From Rhodanobacter sp. 7MK24 (GTDB lineage: Bacteria > Pseudomonadota > Gammaproteobacteria > Xanthomonadales > Rhodanobacteraceae): DNA of 64,000 bases. The position numbers and the translations under genes were made by a program. The notes beneath the pieces were generated by a model that made no database searches, had not been told where the DNA came from, and worked only from the letters and a program-made list of their open reading frames with translations. Location: NCBI RefSeq assembly GCF_014842995.1, contig NZ_JACYXL010000008.1, forward strand, positions 1 through 64,000. Direction: 5' to 3'. How positions within the stretch are numbered: position 1 is the stretch's first letter; each line of letters opens with the position of its first letter. Shown piece after piece: positions 34,881 to 44,479 of this stretch.

Positions 34881-35765
34881 TCAGGCGGCACGGGTGGTGG
34901 CCTGGGCCCGCAGGCGGCCGAAGTAGACGTCTTCCAGGTCGGGTGCCACCGGCTCGAAGCCCGCCTCCGGCTGTTCGTCGGCCAGTACGTGCAGCAGGGT
35001 GCGGCCGCCGGCGAGGCGGGTGGAGAGGATGTTCATGCGGGCGCGGTAGCCGTCCAGCTCGGCCTTGTCGATGCTGCGCCGCCAGACCCTGCCCTCCAGC
35101 GCGCGGATCGCCTCGTGCGGCTCGCCGGTGAGCAGCACCTGGCCCTGGCCGATGATCGCCATGCGCTGGCAGAGGTCGGTGACGTCCTCGACGATATGGG
35201 TGGAGAGGATCACCACCACGCGCTCGCCGATCTCGGCCAGCAGGTTCAGGAAGCGGTTGCGTTCCTCCGGATCGAGGCCGGCGGTGGGCTCGTCCACGAT
35301 CACCAGCCGCGGGTCGCCGATCAGCGCCTGCGCGATGCCGAAGCGTTGGCGCATGCCGCCGGAATAGGTGCCCAGCTTGCGCTTGCGCACGTCCCACAGG
35401 TTCACCTGACGCAGCAGCGCCTCCACCAGCTCCCGACGCTCGCCCCTGGCGATGACGCCCTTGAGCACCGCGAAGTGATCCAGCATCGCTTCCGCGGAAA
35501 CTTTCGGATACACCCCGAATTCCTGGGGCAGGTAGCCGAGCAGGCGGCGGGTGGCTTCCTTGTTGGCCAGCAGGTCCAGGTCGTCCAGCCGGACGCTGCC
35601 TTCGTCCGGTTCCTGCAAGGTCGCAATGGTGCGCATCAGCGAGGACTTGCCCGCGCCGTTTGGCCCCAGCAGGCCGAACATGCCATTGGGAATCTCCAGC
35701 GAGATATCGCGCAACGCACGCACGCCATTGGCGTAGGTCTTGGACAGGCGGTTGATGCTGAGCAT
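34881..35765 (-). CDS. ABC transporter ATP-binding protein
   Basis: 294 residues. Walker [11 protein letters not shown]-loop [10 protein letters not shown], signature YSGGMRQR, Walker [13 protein letters not shown] and H-loop STHIVED are all present. This is the ABC-2/drug-type ATPase. It starts at ATG 35765; a Shine-Dalgarno is not obvious. It is the first gene of a two-gene unit with the permease-peptidase, and is divergent from aceF. Confidence 0.93.
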
Positions 35766-35856
35766 GGTTGCGGCGGCTATGGGCGATGGATGCAGTGTGC
35801 GGTGGCGAGGCAGGGGACCGCATGGGCTGCACGTCACGGGGTGCCCGTCACGCCAT

Positions 35857-35868
35857 GCATACGTATGC
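35857..35868. promoter_or_regulatory. 12-bp palindrome in the aceF/ABC divergent region
   Basis: GCATACGTATGC is a perfect palindrome within a longer imperfect one (CATGCATACGTATGCGCATG). It lies 120 bases before the aceF start and 92 before the ABC ATPase start. It could be an operator for either. It is unlike the E. coli PdhR site. Confidence 0.35.
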
Positions 35869-35988
35869 GCATGTGCAGGGGCGGCGAAAGTAGTGCTTCC
35901 GCCGGATGCCTCGTTCGCTATCATGCAAGTCTTGCGGCCGCTCTCTGTCCCCCTTTGCGGTCTGCCCTCGCCATCCGCAGGAGACACC

Positions 35989-37677
35989 ATGGCCATCCAA
36001 GAAGCCCGCGTACCCGACATCGGCGGTCACGACAACGTGCCGGTGATCGAGGTGCTGATCAAACCCGGCGACCGGGTGGAGAAGGAACAGAGCCTGATCA
36101 CGCTGGAGTCGGACAAGGCCACGATGGAGGTGCCGGCACCGTTCGCGGGCGTGGTCAAGGAAGTGAAAGTGAAGCTTGGACAGGAAGTTTCCGAGGGCGC
36201 GGTGATCGCCCTGATCGAAGCCGAGGGCGCTGCCTCGGCCCCCGCGCCGCAACCGGCGGCTGCACCCAGCCCGGCTCCCGCAGCGGCCGCGCCGGCACCC
36301 GCCCCCACTCCTGCGCCTGCCCCCCAGGCCGCCAGCAGTGGTGGTGGCGTCCGCGAAGCGCGCGTGCCCGACATCGGCGGCCACGGCGGCGTGCCGGTGA
36401 TCGAGGTGCTGGTGAAGGCGGGCGACCGTGTCGCCAAGGACCAGGGCCTGATCACGCTGGAATCCGACAAGGCCACGATGGAAGTGCCTGCGCCGTTTGC
36501 CGGCGTGGTGAAGGAAATGAAGTTGAAGCTGGGCGACGAGGTTTCCGAAGGCGCGCTGATCGCGTTGATCGAGGCCGAGGGTGCGGCCCCCGCACCCGCT
36601 GCTCCGGCTCCTGCGCCCGCCCCGGCTCCCGCTCCAAAAGCGGAAGAAAAGCCCGACCCCCAGGGGGGCCGTGGCGTGCTGCCCGGCAACCCGCCGGAGG
36701 GTGACGTACCACCGGAGGTGCGCCCGCCGTTCGACGCCAACATCGTGATGCCGGGCGACGCGCCCTACGCCAGCCCCGCGGTGCGCGCCTTCGCGCGCGA
36801 GCTGGGCGTGGACATCCAGCAGGTGAAGGGCAGTGCGCGCGGCGGCCGCATCGTGCGCGACGACATCAGCGCCTACGTCAAGCACGCGCTGGCCTCGGGC
36901 GCGCGGCCGGTGCAGGGCGGTGCGCCCGTCGCCGCCGGCGGTGGCCTCAACCTGCTGCCGTGGCCCAAGGTGGACTTCAGCAAGTTCGGCCCGGTCGAGG
37001 AGAAGGCGCTCTCGCGCATCCAGAAGATTTCCGGCGCCAACCTCGCACGCAACTGGGCGATGATTCCGCACGTCACCCAGCACGAGGACGCCGACATCAC
37101 CGAGCTGGAGGCCTTCCGCAAGAAGCTCGGCGAGGAGAACAAGGACCTCAAGATCACCCCGCTGGTGTTCCAGATGAAGGCGGTGGTGGCGGCGCTGAAG
37201 GAGTTCCCGCAGTTCAACGCCTCGCTGGACGAGACCGGCGAGAAGCTGATCCTCAAGAAGTACTTCCACGTAGGCATCGCGGTGGACACGCCCGACGGCC
37301 TGGTGGTGCCGGTGATCCGCGACGTGGACAAGAAGGGCCTGCTCGACCTCGCCCGCGAGCTGGGCGAGATCTCCAAGAAGGCGCGCGACAAGAAGCTGGG
37401 GCCGAACGACATGTCCGGCGGCTGCTTCTCCATCAGCTCGCTGGGCGGCATCGGCGGCACCGCGTTCACGCCCATCGTCAACGCGCCGGAAGTGGCCATC
37501 CTCGGCGTCTCCAAGTCGGCGATCAAGCCGGTGTGGAACGGCAAGGAATTCGCGCCGCGCCTGATCCTGCCGTTGTCGCTCTCCTACGACCACCGCGTGA
37601 TCGATGGCGCACTCGCCGCCCGCTTCGCCGCCTTCGTGGCGAAGCAGCTCGGCGACATCCGCCGCTTGCTGCTCTGA
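35989..37677 (+). CDS. aceF: Pyruvate dehydrogenase E2, dihydrolipoamide acetyltransferase
   Basis: 562 residues. Two lipoyl domains (residues about 2-75 and 122-195), each with the lipoylated Lys in [10 protein letters not shown], are joined by Ala/Pro-rich linkers. The E1/E3-binding domain is at about 258-295 ([20 protein letters not shown]), and the catalytic domain follows with [10 protein letters not shown] (His near residue 534). It transfers acetyl from lipoyl to CoA and forms the complex core. AGGAG lies 7 bases before the ATG. lpdA follows after 120 bases. The second lipoyl domain looks like a copy of the first (nearly the same DNA blocks). Confidence 0.96.
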
Positions 37678-37689
37678 CGCCCTGCTTTT

Positions 37690-37756
37690 CCCCTCTCCCC
37701 CGTAAACAAATTTGGTAAACGGGGCAGAGGGCAGGGTGAGGGGCGGGTGCTCACGG
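37690..37756. repeat. REP-like repeat, copy 3, between aceF and lpdA
   Basis: CCCCTCTCCCCCG, an A/T-rich middle with the direct repeat GTAAAC-AAATTTG-GTAAAC, then GGGGCAGAGGGCAGGG and GTGAGGGGCGGGTGCTC. The last 17 bases are shared with copy 2. The A/T-rich centre is odd for this genome. Confidence 0.8.
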
Positions 37757-37797
37757 CACCGCCTCAACAGGTAGCGAACAAGAACAAAGGATTCCCC

Positions 37798-39615
37798 ATG
37801 GCGAACACGATCGAAATCAAGGTTCCCGACATCGGCGGCCACGACAACGTGCCGGTGATCGAGGTGCTGGTGAAGGCCGGCGACACGGTGACGAAGGAAC
37901 AGAGCCTCATCACGCTGGAGTCGGACAAGGCGACGATGGAAGTGCCCTCCAGCGCCGCCGGCACGGTGAAGGAACTCAAGGTGAAGCTGGGCGACGAGGT
38001 ATCCGAGGGCACGGTCATCCTGCTTTTGGAAACCGCCGCCGAAGCCGGCGTCGCGCCCCCCTCTCCCCCCCGGGGAGAGGGCAGGGGTGAGGGGACGGCC
38101 CCGCCGAGCGCTTCCGCAAGCGCCCGCCCCTCACCTCAATCCTCTCCCCAAAGGAGAGAGGAGGCGAAAGCACCGCAGGCGGCAGCTGTTACTGGGAAAA
38201 CCGCGGACATCACCTGCCAGCTCGTCGTCCTCGGCTCCGGCCCCGGCGGCTATTCGGCCGCGTTCCGCGCCGCCGACCTCGGCCTCGACACCGTGCTGGT
38301 GGAGCGCTACGACACCCTGGGCGGCGTCTGCCTCAACGTGGGCTGCATCCCCTCCAAGGCGCTGCTGCACGCCGCCGCGGTGATCGACGAAGCCGAGGCG
38401 ATGGCCGCGCACGGCGTCACTTTCGGCAAGCCCAAGCTCGACCTGGCCAAGCTGCGCGACTTCAAGGTCAGCGTGGTGGGCCAGCTCACCAAGGGTCTGG
38501 CCGGCATGGCCAAGCAGCGCAAGGTGCGCGCGGTGGTCGGCACCGGCAGCTTCGTGTCGCCGCACGAGATGGAAGTCCAGACGCCCGAAGGCGTGAAGCT
38601 CATCCGTTTCGAGCAGGCGATCATCGCCGCCGGTTCGCAGTCGGTGAAGCTGCCTGCGTTCCCGTGGGACGACGAGCGCGTGATGGATTCCACCGGCGCA
38701 CTGGAAATGAAGGACGTGCCCGGCAAGCTGCTGGTCGTCGGTGGCGGCATCATCGGCCTGGAAATGGCCACGGTGTATGCCGCGCTGGGCAGCGAAGTGA
38801 CCGTGGTCGAGTTCATGGACCAGATCATCCCCGGCGCCGATGCCGATCTCGTCAAGCCGCTGGCCAAGCGCCTGGGCGGCAAGGTCAAGGGCATCCACCT
38901 CAAGACCAAGGTGACCGAGGCCAAGGCCGGCAAGAAGGGCATCGAGGTCAAGTACGAAGGCGAGAGCATCCCCGAAACCAGCGTGTTCGACCGCGTGCTG
39001 GTGGCCGTGGGCCGCTCGCCCAACGGCAACAAGATCGGCGCGGAAAAGGCCGGCGTGGCGGTGACCGAGCGCGGCTTCATCAACGTGGACACGCAGCTGC
39101 GCACCAACGTGCCGCACATCTTCGCCATCGGCGACATCGTCGGCCAGCCCATGCTGGCGCACAAGGCGGTGCATGAGGCACACGTGGCGGCGGAAGTCGC
39201 GGCGGGCCACAAGGCACATTTCGATGCACGCGTAATCCCGTCCGTCGCCTTCACCAATCCCGAAGTGGCGTGGGTGGGTGTCACCGAGCGCGAGGCGAAG
39301 GAGAAGGGCCTCAAGGTGGGCGTGGGCAAGTTCCCGTGGGCGGCTTCCGGCCGTGCCATCGGCATCGCGCGCACCGAAGGCTTCACCAAGCTGATCTTCG
39401 ACGAAGAGACCCATCGCATCGTGGGCGGCGCCGTGGTCGGCGTGAACGCGGGCGACCTGATCTCCGAACTGGCGCTGGCGATCGAGATGGGTAGCGAAGC
39501 CGCCGACATCGCGCTCACCGTGCATCCGCATCCCACCCTGGGCGAATCGGTGGGCATGGCGGCCGAGGTCTACGAGGGCACCATCACCGACCTCTACATT
39601 CCGAAGAAGAAGTAA
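37798..39615 (+). CDS. lpdA: Dihydrolipoamide dehydrogenase (E3) with N-terminal lipoyl domain
   Basis: 605 residues. Residues about 2-80 are a lipoyl domain ([10 protein letters not shown]). Residues about 140-605 are the flavoprotein: FAD motif [13 protein letters not shown], redox disulfide [16 protein letters not shown] motif [10 protein letters not shown], and the C-terminal catalytic His-Glu in HPHPTLGE. It reoxidises dihydrolipoyl E2 with NAD+. The linker (about residues 86-123, [13 protein letters not shown] ... [11 protein letters not shown]) is encoded by a copy of the genome's intergenic repeat. The start at 37798 matches the E2 lipoyl N-terminus. Confidence 0.96.
38056..38162. repeat. 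REP-like repeat pair inside lpdA
   Basis: Left module CCCCCTCTCC...GGGGAGAGGGCAGGGGTGAGGGG (38056-38094), a short centre with the hairpin GCGCTTCCGCAAGCGC, and an inverted right module CGCCCGCCCCTCACC...AAAGGAGAGAGG (38120-38162). Bases 38123-38149 equal the reverse complement of 12761-12787 over 27 nt. The reading frame is open through the whole pair. Confidence 0.9.
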
Positions 39616-39694: not shown

Positions 39695-40387
39695 TTAGTG
39701 CGCCGGCGCGGCGGATGTCGCTGCGACGAGGCCGGGCAGCTCATGTCCGAAAGCCCGTTTCATGGAATCCAGTGCGATGACCGTGTCGCCCAGCGACGAG
39801 GCCATGGAATTCACGGTATGCATGACCTCGAGCGGCTGGAGGGTACCGGCCTTCAGGTCGGCGTCGATGTCGTTCATCCTCGAGCCTTGCAAGTTGACGC
39901 TGGTGTTGAACGAGACGCGCCGTTCGAAATCGCTCTGATAGGCGTAGATCGTGGCGTAGTGACGCAACTTTCCGGCATCGATCCAGCCGGCGGCCTGGTT
40001 GGCGACGGCCACGTCCCAGGCTTCGTGGCGCAGTTTCGGCAACTGCAGTCCAAGAGAGAAATCGCCTTCCATTTGCGTGTCGATATGCTGCGTGATCGTG
40101 GCGGCACTGGTGCCGTCCTTCACCGCCTGGACGAGGTAGTTGTCCAGTTGCGTCAGCAAGGCGAGGCGCTTTGCATCTGCATCGCGCATCCGCTGGATAT
40201 CGGCGAGGTTGGTCTGCAGTTCCGCCTCGATCTGCGCGCTGGCCGTGGCTGCTGCGTGCGTGCGATGCGCGTGCTCGATCCACGCCTCCAGCCCCAGCGC
40301 GGTAAGGATGCTGAGCACGATCATCAGATAGTGCTTGGCGAAATCCTTGAAGGATGTCAGTTCGGCGTGCGGTGGTTCGAGATGCAT
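39695..40387 (-). CDS. Single-span membrane protein, paralog A of three
   Basis: 230 residues. A short cytosolic N-terminus (MHLEPPHAELTSFKDFAKHY) is followed by one span LMIVLSILTALGLEAWIEH and about 190 mostly helical residues. The central motif LRHEAWDVAVANQAAGWID is conserved in the two paralogs at 41387 and 42156. The layout resembles DUF6090-like proteins. There is no enzyme motif; function unknown. GGAG lies 7 bases before the ATG. The DNA for the span is identical to paralog C. Confidence 0.8.
   Translation of the reverse strand: MHLEPPHAELTSFKDFAKHYLMIVLSILTALGLEAWIEHAHRTHAAATASAQIEAELQTNLADIQRMRDADAKRLALLTQLDNYLVQAVKDGTSAATITQHIDTQMEGDFSLGLQLPKLRHEAWDVAVANQAAGWIDAGKLRHYATIYAYQSDFERRVSFNTSVNLQGSRMNDIDADLKAGTLQPLEVMHTVNSMASSLGDTVIALDSMKRAFGHELPGLVAATSAAPAH
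40271..40345. repeat. 75-bp coding repeat, copy in paralog A
   Basis: These 75 bases, encoding FAKHYLMIVLSILTALGLEAWIEH and a little more, are identical to 42741-42815 in paralog C and differ at three positions from 41966-42040 in paralog B, although the rest of the three genes has diverged strongly. Confidence 0.9.
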
Positions 40388-40581
40388 GGTGGCTCCAGCG
40401 AAGGCGGGACCGCACGAGCGTAGCGGATCACCTGGTTCCGGTCTGCGCCGGTCGCGCGTCGGGCGCGGGTGGAGAGTATGACGGCGGGTGTCTGCGTGGG
40501 TACCATCGACGTCCATATTCCCGATAAGTCGATGATTGCCATGCCGCGTCCCGGCGTAGTGCATGGATCTGCGAGGTAAGC

Positions 40582-41382
40582 ATGACGCTGAAGGTATGTC
40601 TGGCAGGCGCCACCGGCTGGGCCGGCTCGGAACTGGCGTGTGGCATTGCCGCCAGTGCGGATCTGGAGCTGGTCGCCGCGGTATCGCGTCGGCACGCCGG
40701 CCAACTGCTGGGTGAAGCACTGGGTGACGCCTCGATCGCCACGCCGGTCTTCGCCAACGCGGTCGAAGCACTGGCCGCGCCCTGCGACGTGTTCGTCGAA
40801 TACACCCATCCCGATACCGCGCGGGCGAACGTGCTTGCCGCGTTGGAGCGTGGTGCACACGTAGTGGTGGGTACATCGGGGCTTGGCGACGAGGACTACG
40901 CGCAGATCGACGCGGCGGCGCGCAAGCAAGGGCGAGGCGTGCTTGCCTGCGGCAACTTCGCGCTCACCGCGGTGCTGTTGATCAAGTTCTCCGAGATGGC
41001 GGCGAAGATCCTGCCGCAATGGGAGATCATCGACTACGCCTACGCCGGCAAGCCGGACGCGCCCAGCGGCACCGTGCGCGAGCTGGCCACGCGCATGGGC
41101 AAGGTGCGCCAGCCGCGACTGGAAGTGCCGCTGGAAGAAACCCGCGGCCTGCGCGAGACGCGCGGAGGCACCCTGGCCGGCAGTCAGGTGCATGCGGTGC
41201 GCCTGCCGGGCTTCGTGCTGGGCGCCGAAACCCTCTTCGGCCTGCCCGACCAGACCCTCAGCATCCGTCACAACGCGGGCGGGAGCGCCAAGCCCTACGT
41301 GGATGGTGCGCTGCTGGCGATCCGCAAGGTGCCGGGCCTTGTCGGCCTGCACCGCGGACTGGACGCTGTGCTGGAGCTCTGA
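40582..41382 (+). CDS. DapB-like reductase lacking the catalytic histidines
   Basis: 266 residues. It follows the DapB (4-hydroxy-tetrahydrodipicolinate reductase) fold: nucleotide motif GATGWAGSEL near the N-terminus, GTSGLGDEDY, NFALTAVLLIKF, then GKPDAPSGT (Lys157, Asp159) that binds substrate. In E. coli DapB this region is HHRHKVDAPSGT; here the two His positions are Ala153 and Tyr154. The size is normal. It may be a paralog with another substrate, or the cell's only DapB with changed chemistry. GAGG lies 7 bases before the ATG. The gene is on the opposite strand to, and between, paralogs A and B. Confidence 0.75.
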   Translation: MTLKVCLAGATGWAGSELACGIAASADLELVAAVSRRHAGQLLGEALGDASIATPVFANAVEALAAPCDVFVEYTHPDTARANVLAALERGAHVVVGTSGLGDEDYAQIDAAARKQGRGVLACGNFALTAVLLIKFSEMAAKILPQWEIIDYAYAGKPDAPSGTVRELATRMGKVRQPRLEVPLEETRGLRETRGGTLAGSQVHAVRLPGFVLGAETLFGLPDQTLSIRHNAGGSAKPYVDGALLAIRKVPGLVGLHRGLDAVLEL

Positions 41383-41386
41383 GCGT

Positions 41387-42082
41387 TCAGGCGTGCCCGG
41401 CCTGCTGGACTGGCCCGTTGCCTGCGGGAGGCAGCGCCGCCTTGAGCGTGTCTTCGAAATGGCGCAGGTTCTGCGTGGTCTGGCCGAGGAGCGCACGCAT
41501 CTGGCTGATGGTGTGCAGGAAGTCGCGGGGCTGCACCTCGCCGGTGTCCAGGTCGGCGATCGTATTGACCATGCCCGAGCCGTTCATGATGAGCGCGGTG
41601 TCCTCATTGAGCAAACTGACGGACTCGCGCTGGCTGGCATAGGCCACGGAATAGCGTTGCATGTGCTCGTGATCGATCCAGCTGGCGGATTGGTCCGCCA
41701 CGGCCACGTCCCATGCCTCGTGGCGTAACTGCGGGAAGTTGAGGTCGAGGTCGAAGTTGTCCCGGGTCAGCGCCAGGATGTGCTGCCTGATCGTTTCGTC
41801 CGGCGTATGCGCCCGGAGGTCCGCGGCAATCGCATCGCGAATCGTGGCGAGTCGCTGCAGTTGGGCGGAATCCTGTTGCAGCGATTTCTCGGTCAGGTCG
41901 AGATTGGTGCGGATTTCCGCCTCAATCCGTGCGCTGGAAGCCGCGGCCGCATGCGCGCGGTGCGCATGCTCGATCCACGCCTCCAACCCCAGCGCGGTAA
42001 GGATGCTGAGCACGATCATCAGGTAGTGCTTGGCGAAATCCCTGGAGGACTCCAGCCGGGTGTTCTGGGGCTCGATATGCAT
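41387..42082 (-). CDS. Single-span membrane protein, paralog B
   Basis: 231 residues with the same layout as paralogs A and C: MHIEPQNTRLESSRDFAKHY, the span LMIVLSILTALGLEAWIEH, an Ala-rich helix, and the shared motif LRHEAWDVAVADQSASWID near residue 125. Outside the N-terminal segment and that motif the proteins differ greatly. Convergent with the DapB-like gene, 4 bases apart, and 73 bases after the paralog C stop. Function unknown. Confidence 0.8.
   Translation of the reverse strand: MHIEPQNTRLESSRDFAKHYLMIVLSILTALGLEAWIEHAHRAHAAAASSARIEAEIRTNLDLTEKSLQQDSAQLQRLATIRDAIAADLRAHTPDETIRQHILALTRDNFDLDLNFPQLRHEAWDVAVADQSASWIDHEHMQRYSVAYASQRESVSLLNEDTALIMNGSGMVNTIADLDTGEVQPRDFLHTISQMRALLGQTTQNLRHFEDTLKAALPPAGNGPVQQAGHA
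41966..42040. repeat. 75-bp coding repeat, copy in paralog B
   Basis: Same block as in paralogs A and C, with three substitutions, two of them synonymous within the span region. Confidence 0.88.
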
Positions 42083-42155
42083 GCGTTCTCCGGCGCGAGT
42101 TTGGTCGGTCGTGAAGCCTAGCGGATTACCAGGCCGGGTTTGCGTACCTGGCGAG

Positions 42156-42857
42156 CTAGGGGCTTGCGGCGTGCCCAGCTGCGGTGTCGTCATCAGCGTC
42201 CTTGCCGAGCGCGTAGAGAAGATGGCTTTCCAGTTGATGGAGATGCGATTGGGTTTCCATCGAGGTGTGCAACATTTGCCGCACGGTACTGATGAACTCC
42301 AGCGGGTCGACGGGCGCGCCTAGATCGACGCGCGTGTGCAACCGCTCCATGGCCGGTACGTCGAGCAGGGCGATACCGTCGTGCGAGACCCAGTCGGAGG
42401 TCTCGCGCAGATCGGCGTAGGCCCGCGAGTAGTGGCGTAGCCGGGCGTCATCGATCCAACTGGCGGATTGGTTGGCGACGGCTACGTCCCAGGATTGCGA
42501 AGCGAACGTCGGCCAGTTGATGCTGAGGCGGAAAGCATCCTTCTGCGCCTGGATATGCTGGTTGATCGCCGCGGCGGGCAGGTTGTCGCGTATATCGACG
42601 GTAAGGGTTTCGTCGAGGTGCTGTAGCGGGGCGATCAGCCCTTCGTTGGTCTTGATCGATTTGCGTATGTCGGCCAGGTTTGCCAGCAGCTCGGTGCGGA
42701 TGTGCTGGCTGGCTTCCTCGGCTGCGCGGGCGTGGTGTGTGTGCTCGATCCACGCCTCCAGCCCCAGCGCGGTAAGGATGCTGAGCACGATCATCAGATA
42801 GTGCTTGGCGAAATCTCTGAAGGATCCCAGCCGGGTATTCGGCGGCTCGATGTGCAT
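42156..42857 (-). CDS. Single-span membrane protein, paralog C
   Basis: 233 residues. MHIEPPNTRLGSFRDFAKHY and the shared span open the protein. A helical periplasmic part follows (EEASQHIRTELLANLADIRKSIKTNEGLIA), with the motif SWDVAVANQSASWID. Upstream gene of the tandem group, so transcription may begin at its 5' side. The three copies differ in the late region, which suggests different binding partners. Function unknown. Confidence 0.8.
   Translation of the reverse strand: MHIEPPNTRLGSFRDFAKHYLMIVLSILTALGLEAWIEHTHHARAAEEASQHIRTELLANLADIRKSIKTNEGLIAPLQHLDETLTVDIRDNLPAAAINQHIQAQKDAFRLSINWPTFASQSWDVAVANQSASWIDDARLRHYSRAYADLRETSDWVSHDGIALLDVPAMERLHTRVDLGAPVDPLEFISTVRQMLHTSMETQSHLHQLESHLLYALGKDADDDTAAGHAASP
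42741..42815. repeat. 75-bp coding repeat, copy in paralog C
   Basis: Identical at all 75 positions to 40271-40345 in paralog A. Confidence 0.9.
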
Positions 42858-43386
42858 GCTCTCTCCGGCGCAGGTTCGGTCGTGGTGAAGCGTAGCGGAT
42901 CGCTACTTCCGCAAGCGACCGGGCGGCTCTGATCTCATGCAAACAGCGCGGTCCTTTTCATTCGGCTGCCCAGGGTGATGGCAGCTGAAACAACGCCCGG
43001 GTCAGAGCATCGTCGAGGCACGATGCCGTAAGCCCCCTCAGTTCTCGGATGCGGCGCGCCATGGCCGTGTCGTCTATCGCACAGGTGAGTGTGGGCCAAT
43101 GCCCTCGGGAATGCCTGTTTGTTGTTCCGGTGGATTGAGCACGGTCATTTCCCTTCTCCTGATCGTGGCGTCTCTGCCTTCGATCCTATGGACAGACCTT
43201 GCTGCCTGCCACCGCAACTGCGATGACATGGCTTGGCAAAGGGAGCGAATCCGGCCGTCCGCAGGCGGCCGAAGCGGCCTTGATTCCTTGCCAAAGGAAA
43301 CGCCGAAGTTGACGCCCGCCCCCAACGACCGAGAGTCTGGGAGCACATCGCCGCCCAAAGGGAATGGCGAAAAGCCGGCCTGCCGA
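42858..43386. other. 529-base gap with a possible broken small gene and repeat-like block
   Basis: The part next to 42858 should hold the promoter of the paralog group. Bases 42958-43148 may be a small frameshifted gene, listed separately. Bases about 43230-43385 (CAAAGGGAGCGAATCCGG ... CCGCAGG) resemble CAAAGAGAGCGAATCC...CCGCAGG near the end of the hairpin-rich element at 59685-59705, so this may be another decayed copy. I see no other gene. Confidence 0.4.
42958..43148 (-). pseudogene. Possible frameshifted small gene
   Basis: An ATG at 43148 is preceded by a strong AGGAGAAGGGAA ribosome site and opens MTVLNPPEQQTGIPEGIG, which stops after 24 codons. A second frame, entered by losing one base near codon 16, runs TLTCAIDDTAMARRIREL and on to a TGA at 42958-42960, for a joined length of about 62 residues. 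The second part has an ordinary amino-acid mix. Either a broken small gene, or two unrelated short frames. Confidence 0.3.
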
Positions 43387-43848
43387 TCAGCCCGCCAAAC
43401 GCCGCCCCGGCCGCAATCCAAGCAGCCAGGTCGCAGCCACACATCCCCCCAGAGCCAGCAACCACTCCGTTGCAGACGAACTGGGCTGCGGCAGCAACAG
43501 ACGGAACGCAGGCAGCCAGGCAGCGCCGTAGTCGGCAGTCACCACACCAGCCGCCACGACCAGCACGACGCCGAGCAGACCCATCAGGATGAACTCGGAA
43601 CGCGAGTCCCCGATTTCGTCGCGAGCTGGCGCGGTGGCAACGCGTGCCGCCATCTGCTGCGCGAAGTCATCCGGCAATGCCGAAGGCAGCGGTTCGCGCA
43701 ACGCGCGTGCCATCAGGCGGTAACGGCGCACGCGACCGTCGCCGTTGGACGGATCGAGGCCGAGGCGCTCCGCGCGCAGGGCACGTTCCTGCGCCTGCCA
43801 TTCGCGCTCCTGCGCGGGATCGTCGAAAGGAGGGATGTCGTGATTCAT
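43387..43848 (-). CDS. Membrane protein coupled to the ECF sigma factor, putative anti-sigma factor
   Basis: 153 residues. A charged cytosolic N-terminal half (DDPAQEREWQAQERALRAERLGLDPSNGDGRV) is followed by two spans, FILMGLLGVVLVVAAGVVTA and WLLALGGCVAATWLLGL. Its start overlaps the sigma gene stop (ATGA), the usual arrangement of ECF sigma/anti-sigma pairs. No ZAS zinc motif (HxxxCxxC) is seen. Role assigned by position and layout only. Confidence 0.65.
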   Translation of the reverse strand: MNHDIPPFDDPAQEREWQAQERALRAERLGLDPSNGDGRVRRYRLMARALREPLPSALPDDFAQQMAARVATAPARDEIGDSRSEFILMGLLGVVLVVAAGVVTADYGAAWLPAFRLLLPQPSSSATEWLLALGGCVAATWLLGLRPGRRLAG

Positions 43849-44423
43849 GCCGCAACTCCTGTCCGGTTTTCCAGCGCCTCGCGCAAGCGCAGGCGTGAGC
43901 GGAACAAGTGGCTCTTGATGGTACCCCCGGCCAGCCCGGTGATGCGAGCGATCTCGGGAATGGGGAGTTCGTCCAGGTAATACAGCGTGAGCACGCTGCG
44001 CTGCACGGGCGGGAGCGCCTCGATGGCTTCGTGCAAGTGGCGCTGGGTTTCTTCGTCTGCGCAGGCGGCTTCGAGGTCGAAACCGTCGCCAATGTTTTCC
44101 AGCAGCGCGTCGCCCTCGTCGTCGACACTGGTTTCGACCAGCGGGATGCGCTTGTGTTGCAGGTGACGCAGGGCGATGGTCCAGGCCACGCGGCCTATCC
44201 ACGATTTCAGTGCGCTCTCGCCGCGGTACTGATGCAGGCACTGGTGCACGCGCAGGAAGGTGTCCTGGCACAGCTCGCGCGCGTCCTCGGGGTTGCGCAC
44301 CATGCGCTGGATGATGTGCCAGCACAGGCCCTGGTACTCGCGCACGAGGCGTTCGAACGCGCCGAGCCGGTTGGCCAGCACGGCTTCCGCCAGGGCGCGG
44401 TCGTTGGAGTGGGCGTCATCCAT
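43845..44423 (-). CDS. ECF-family RNA polymerase sigma factor
   Basis: 192 residues. Sigma region 2 is visible as FERLVREYQGLCWHIIQRMV, then NPEDARELCQDTFLRVHQCL, and YRGESALKSWIGRVAW. Region 4 is LPPVQRSVLTLYYLDELPIPEIARITGLAGGTIKSHLFRSR. It should direct transcription of a small regulon; such genes commonly control their own operon. The start at 44423 removes an upstream in-frame Met that would read through the divergent region. Confidence 0.92.
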   Translation of the reverse strand: MDDAHSNDRALAEAVLANRLGAFERLVREYQGLCWHIIQRMVRNPEDARELCQDTFLRVHQCLHQYRGESALKSWIGRVAWTIALRHLQHKRIPLVETSVDDEGDALLENIGDGFDLEAACADEETQRHLHEAIEALPPVQRSVLTLYYLDELPIPEIARITGLAGGTIKSHLFRSRLRLREALENRTGVAA

Positions 44424-44449
44424 CACGCAAGGGATACATGCAGGTGCAG

Positions 44450-44479
44450 AACGGTTGCAGCGTGCCGAATGCAACCGTT
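44450..44479. promoter_or_regulatory. Inverted repeat between the divergent ECF and membrane genes
   Basis: AACGGTTGCA (44450-44459) and TGCAACCGTT (44470-44479) are perfect complements 10 bases apart, so the half-sites' centres are about two helix turns apart. It lies 27 bases from the sigma gene start and 64 from the divergent gene start. A dimeric regulator site is the likely reading. Confidence 0.55.

Follow-up and report, generated by a model that had tools for sequence, protein, structure and literature searches.

The described family closest in layout to the proteins reported here is DUF6090 (Pfam PF19578), in which, compared by eye, an N-terminal single membrane span with a G/S-x3-A/G core is followed by a mostly helical body, as in our proteins; our limited search found no literature on DUF6090 or PF19578, which is no proof that none has been published. 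Single-span anchors are often freer to drift than the domains they hold. The second described reference is DapB (TIGR00036), whose active-site motif is His-His-x2-Lys.

The window, that is the whole stretch of 64,000 nucleotides from Rhodanobacter sp. 7MK24 that was analysed, holds three genes for single-span membrane proteins, called here A, B and C, and a reductase-like gene on the opposite strand between A and B. Both observations had been made from the letters of the DNA by an earlier sequence-only reading, and both were confirmed: A, B and C are real, open frames with ATG starts. The features are as follows.

39695..40387, minus strand: paralogue A, single-span membrane protein of 230 aa, open frame with ATG start
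40277..40330, minus strand: conserved membrane span of A, codons 20-37, 17 of 18 positions invariant (n = 56)
40388..40434, minus strand: 5' flank of A with a promoter-like TACGCT box
40582..41382, plus strand: DapB-like reductase gene between A and B, 266 aa, match to TIGR00036
41387..42082, minus strand: paralogue B, single-span membrane protein of 231 aa, open frame with ATG start
41972..42025, minus strand: conserved membrane span of B, codons 20-37, placed by alignment
42083..42130, minus strand: 5' flank of B with a TAGGCT box
42156..42857, minus strand: paralogue C, single-span membrane protein of 233 aa, open frame with ATG start
42747..42800, minus strand: conserved membrane span of C, codons 20-37, placed by alignment
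42858..42905, minus strand: 5' flank of C with a TACGCT box

Judged by their alignment, A, B and C are paralogues over full length. Protein A shares 46% of its residues with B and 43% with C, and because of this whole-length homology (43-46% against A) the bodies are not unrelated domains placed on a common anchor. The first 45 residues had been called near-identical, and identity there is indeed 0.80 for A-B, 0.78 for A-C and 0.87 for B-C, falling to 0.32-0.34 beyond residue 45, where W124, Y144, Y148, P185 and M195 are common to all three. The statement that the proteins differ over most of the rest holds as far as these values go, but the bodies are clearly homologous end to end; likewise, the central motif proposed from the letters is present in all three proteins, but B reads AWDVAVADQSASWID, with D where N had been given. 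Searches with single sequences and with a profile both found three copies in the host genome.

According to our analysis these proteins are members of an uncharacterised Rhodanobacteraceae family that has no name in Pfam or NCBIfam. Its alignment of 56 sequences (profile A2) comprises, besides A, B and C, 53 full-length members from 37 of 38 loci, which came from scanning genome contigs with patterns that partly overlap the span; the same scan yielded one decayed copy, in L073. Records named to genus belong to Rhodanobacter, Dyella, Fulvimonas and Frateuria, and some metagenome records are named only above genus rank. The family features are the conserved start, an 18-residue span with [S/G]xxxAxG, a WDVAVAxQ motif and Y148, all of which A, B and C possess. 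A tree of the bodies only, with a midpoint root used for drawing only, sets 23 C-like rows against 33 A+B-like rows, with several genera in each, and places four A-like rows on a long stem (0.99).

A three-sequence profile matched 18 of 61 relatives, and the 56-member profile matched 66 of 197 genomes of the bacterial family at E <= 0.001. Full-length copies, at least 79, occur in 53 of these 66 genomes, the other 13 having fragments or distant relatives only. Copy number varies between genomes, with one copy in 31, two in 18 and three in 4, counts which are lower bounds since a limited number of candidates was scored per genome. In the 22 multi-copy genomes the copies lie within 5 kb of each other in 16 cases and are dispersed in six. 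Only three of 398 genomes sampled across the phylum match the same profile, and two of them come from the same bacterial family. As a full-length copy is present in only 53 of the 197 genomes, the role of the family is dispensable. Decayed copies with little beyond the conserved start and span were seen at L017/L073, L018 and L033 (L073 lies beside lpd), so copies are lost as well as gained.

The lpd gene, dinB (PolIV) or both are visible in the fetched stretch of 31 of 38 loci, which makes one chromosomal spot the usual home of the family; neither is seen in the stretches fetched for L043, L049, L050, L055, L063, L066 and L070. Read by eye, positions 35740-37677 of the window encode a dihydrolipoamide dehydrogenase that appears to bear its own N-terminal lipoyl domain, and positions 37747-39615 a pyruvate dehydrogenase E2. 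A search for a recurrent partner gene, in which 435 predicted genes from 39 stretches (38 loci plus the window, with family genes counted) were clustered, returned the general lpd-dinB surroundings. No recurring neighbour that would name a partner was found at six locations away from lpd, where inspection by eye showed only a stretch common to L063 and L066 and, at L050 and L055, genes resembling short-chain dehydrogenases; the L043 stretch ends at the end of its contig.

The part of these proteins that stands out is the membrane span. Kyte-Doolittle hydropathy shows one stretch each in A, B and C, at residues 19-37 (best 19-residue mean 1.65), with nothing above 1.3 after residue 46, which bears out the single span read earlier within the conserved start, and this one-span pattern holds in 56 of 56 family members. 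At the single variable position S26 is replaced by G in three members. The [S/G]xxxA packing motif is found in 56 of 56, position 26 being S or G and position 30 A; nine distant relatives all carry A at position 30, with G, A or S at position 26. Conservation of the family span extends to every face of the helix, exceeding the needs of one simple dimer face.

It might be argued that this frozen span is a mere footprint of recent gene conversion or an artefact of sampling and has no special role. Strict invariance is indeed partly an effect of the scan, because its patterns lay partly inside the span, and of the 79 profile-found copies, the 20 that were fetched outside the pattern scan (18 of them new, with L156 and L163 already in the set as L066 and L050) are slightly more varied: A35 becomes Q in 13 of 20, the commonest change, and G32 becomes S in two. 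Yet each of the 20 keeps at least 14 of the 18 span residues, so that by alignment the family span is very strongly conserved, beyond the effect of the patterns. Paralogues of one genome are also more alike in their 5' ends than expected (same-residue codon identity in codons 2-45 of 0.696 vs 0.530), as a conversion footprint would have it. However, between genomes the residues of this region stay while the codons vary (0.615, where the rest of the gene predicts 0.556), which points to protein-level selection as the main cause of the frozen base, and the packing motif persists in the nine distant relatives. We consider an explanation by conversion or sampling alone very unlikely.

Conversion may still contribute. 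In a permutation test comparing C with A/B over same-residue columns (14 pairs, 10 genomes), codons 2-45 gave a codon identity of 0.734 for pairs from one genome and 0.638 for pairs from different genomes (p 0.014), against 0.602 within and 0.56 between in codons 46-225 (p 0.22) and 0.65 within and 0.596 between in codons 116-150 alone (p 0.098). Part of the likeness within genomes is explained by genome-specific codon usage, as the values for codons 46-225 indicate, and the 5' end slightly exceeds its expected likeness between genomes as well (0.615 vs 0.556). The clearest case is a pair of paralogues at L061, whose DNA is 95.6% identical over codons 1-45 and 47% after. It is likely, but on this modest evidence not proven, that the 5' ends of paralogues are homogenised by gene conversion.

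Beyond the span, the predicted structure of A (pLDDT 82, pTM 0.67) shows one unbroken helix over residues 13-90, followed by more helices as far as residue 223, so the body is modelled as all-helical. The mean charges of residues 1-19 (K+R 3.4, D+E 2.5) and 38-60 (K+R 1.7, D+E 3.7) suggest, from charge balance alone, a topology with the N-terminus inside and the C-terminus outside. A fold search of the PDB with the model returned generic helical bundles, none at E <= 0.001.

A helical body on one span invites comparison with four-helix-bundle sensors, in which the bodies would bind small ligands, with the anchor relaying the signal either to a separate kinase or to the neighbouring ECF-type sigma factor system. 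Weak Foldseek matches of the model were to sensor-plus-span fragments of NarQ (6xyn, probability 0.72, E 0.32; 5jgp, 0.69, E 0.73). A probable ECF-type sigma factor gene, recognised by eye, lies at 43845-44474 of the window, upstream of C and on the same strand, and has a relative in 15 of 38 loci; at L066 the gene just upstream has, again by eye, a start like that of a chemotaxis receptor. Nevertheless, A, B and C have neither a second span nor a cytoplasmic output domain, the sigma gene was not seen in the fetched stretch of the other 23 loci, and it also stands beside the DapB-like gene in stretches that have no family genes (L107-L110, L113, L118). A sensor of this kind is in our view improbable.

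Upstream of the genes, 44 of 56 members, A, B and C included, have a hexamer TA[ACG]GCT at a distance of 31-47 nt from the start codon; mononucleotide shuffles give an expectation of 1.2, and a control window further upstream contained none. We infer that it is a -10 box, and the copies A, B and C are probably each transcribed separately. If each gene has its own conserved promoter, copies could therefore be gained or lost singly, as we propose.

The opposing gene at 40582-41382 scores 143.7 bits against TIGR00036, above the cut-off of 122. As in DapB, its product retains DAPSGT and the nearby lysine, whereas the HH pair before that lysine is replaced by A-Y or A-S in eight of eight aligned orthologues, unlike the PDB chains 5z2e and 5kt0, which keep HH. 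The host genome has a canonical dapB elsewhere (G000:C32:41648-42415, 222.7 bits). On our reading of these residues, the product of the DapB-like gene would be a different enzyme from DapB.

The arrangement around this gene had been taken to hint at a joint function, that is at a functional module of three membrane proteins and a reductase which, for instance, supplies or removes a ligand sensed by their bodies. With 65% identity as the lower limit for a close orthologue, the DapB-like gene was found in 37 of the 197 genomes (the G007 copy is split between two contigs, and a fragment of 43 residues in G014 was left out). Both genes are present in 20 genomes; 33 have a full-length membrane gene but no DapB-like gene, 17 show the reverse, and 127 have neither. 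If kinship is ignored, the odds ratio for co-occurrence is 4.5 (Fisher p 1.3e-4). The two genes do recur together: 18 of the 20 genomes with both have them no more than 6 kb apart, and the DapB-like gene is present in 11 of 16 tandem-copy genomes and in 20 of 38 fetched loci, there always on the strand opposite to the family genes, which itself speaks against a common unit. But 17 of 37 genomes with the DapB-like gene and 33 of 53 with the membrane gene lack the other partner, and this tells against joint function. Of the 17, two (G483, G517) have one distant family relative each, and 12 were examined: the DapB-like gene is found with lpd in seven of these (L107-L112, L118), and no family match at E <= 0.1 appeared in any of the 12 stretches.

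Since the DapB-like gene stays beside lpd where membrane genes are missing, it occupies the locus in its own right, loosely linked to A, B and C and most likely a mere neighbour. With such a weak link in the 197 genomes and this placement, we rejected a module as the main reading and regard it as highly doubtful.

By profile comparison, the Rhodanobacteraceae family is one branch within a wider superfamily of single-span proteins, which extends as far as DUF6090-like members. Common to the distant relatives are the span, the first helix, an AW(D/T)xA region and YxxQ. The same superfamily takes in the unnamed single-span proteins L019, L020, L021, L029, L076, L078, L120 and L122-L124, of which none of ten passes a Pfam cut-off and none of six an NCBIfam cut-off; their body lengths differ, and L122 is only 15-21% identical to A, B and C. 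Profile A2 aligns with six of the unnamed relatives by hhalign at 99.0% (E 9e-18, 137 columns, from the span to the YxxQ region), an agreement that is not independent, because family profiles had recruited those six.

A profile that includes distant relatives (A4) matched 17 of 398 genomes of the phylum. Among the doubtful matches are two proteins of 122 residues (L136, L139) and two frames of about 600 residues (L132, L140), which look unrelated beyond the hydrophobic stretch. The DUF6090 cut-off of 23.5 bits is passed by two of seven A4 matches scanned, L134 (24.8) and L144 (31.6), which A4 matches over the span and first helix only. With five of these matches A4 aligns by hhalign at 95.9% (E 6e-9, 123 columns), again not independently, as A4 itself had recruited them. 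Searched directly, DUF6090 gave no match to A, B or C at E <= 10 and matched two of the 56 family members at E <= 1 (best 0.084). It had no match in 200 genomes, but none in its 14 controls either, so that this last search carries no information. Its layout, a single span and then a helical body, is seen in the family by hydropathy in 56 of 56 members and, for the helical part, in the model of A only.

Among other described systems, the 2TM effector of PADLOC defence systems was tried and rejected: it has two spans where our proteins have one, and its matches were weak (E 0.0016-0.025). PHROGs gave weak matches only, and a plasmid search with B gave none. Separately, an Acidisarcina plasmid (NZ_CP030843.1:99180-99308) matches residues 1-44 of a distant relative at 54.5%, which covers the anchor part only.

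One genome from another family of the phylum, G204, contains seven A4 matches (L127, L142, L147, L149-L152). Six of them, leaving aside L152, whose start lacks the common peptide, have a near-constant start (M/L/V)(D/E)IHKP... and span followed by diverged bodies, with 66% identity in residues 1-40 (pairs 50-88%) and 23% after (18-29%). This set is largely dispersed, two members lying about 4 kb apart and the others on different contigs. A conserved base with a diverged body is thus no peculiarity of the window.

The idea of a common base with a diversified helical body, already present in the sequence-only reading, has held up well, with the span nearly frozen, the model of A all-helical and the same pattern in G204. 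We propose, at a probability of about one in two and on the grounds of sequence and model, that A, B and C work through a shared docking helix and a diversified periplasmic helical bundle. They would sit in the inner membrane, a short N-terminus in the cytoplasm leading into one membrane helix and then into an all-helical periplasmic body some 190 residues long. Together, the N-terminal peptide and the helix, whose packing face is [S/G]xxxAxG, would form a common docking element that keeps each copy in one homo- or hetero-oligomer or against one conserved membrane partner; the outer bodies could then diverge while the docking element stays. Purifying selection, together with gene conversion between tandem copies, would keep the base uniform, and the DapB-like gene, resident beside lpd, would have no part in the function of A, B and C. 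Both the docking of the helix and a common partner are inferred.

We may even suggest, tentatively and with less conviction, a plug-in membrane system, in which a frozen cytoplasmic peptide and docking helix, kept uniform through selection and conversion limited to the 5' end, would mount interchangeable, quickly diverging periplasmic bundles on a single membrane partner common to all. Two or more proteobacterial lineages would have expanded this architecture independently of each other. A near-invariant anchor joined to a variable body makes it possible to study by clean genetic means what is recognised by a single helix. As the wider superfamily, DUF6090 included, is listed in Pfam as of 'unknown function', identifying a partner here would shed light on many proteins that lack annotation.
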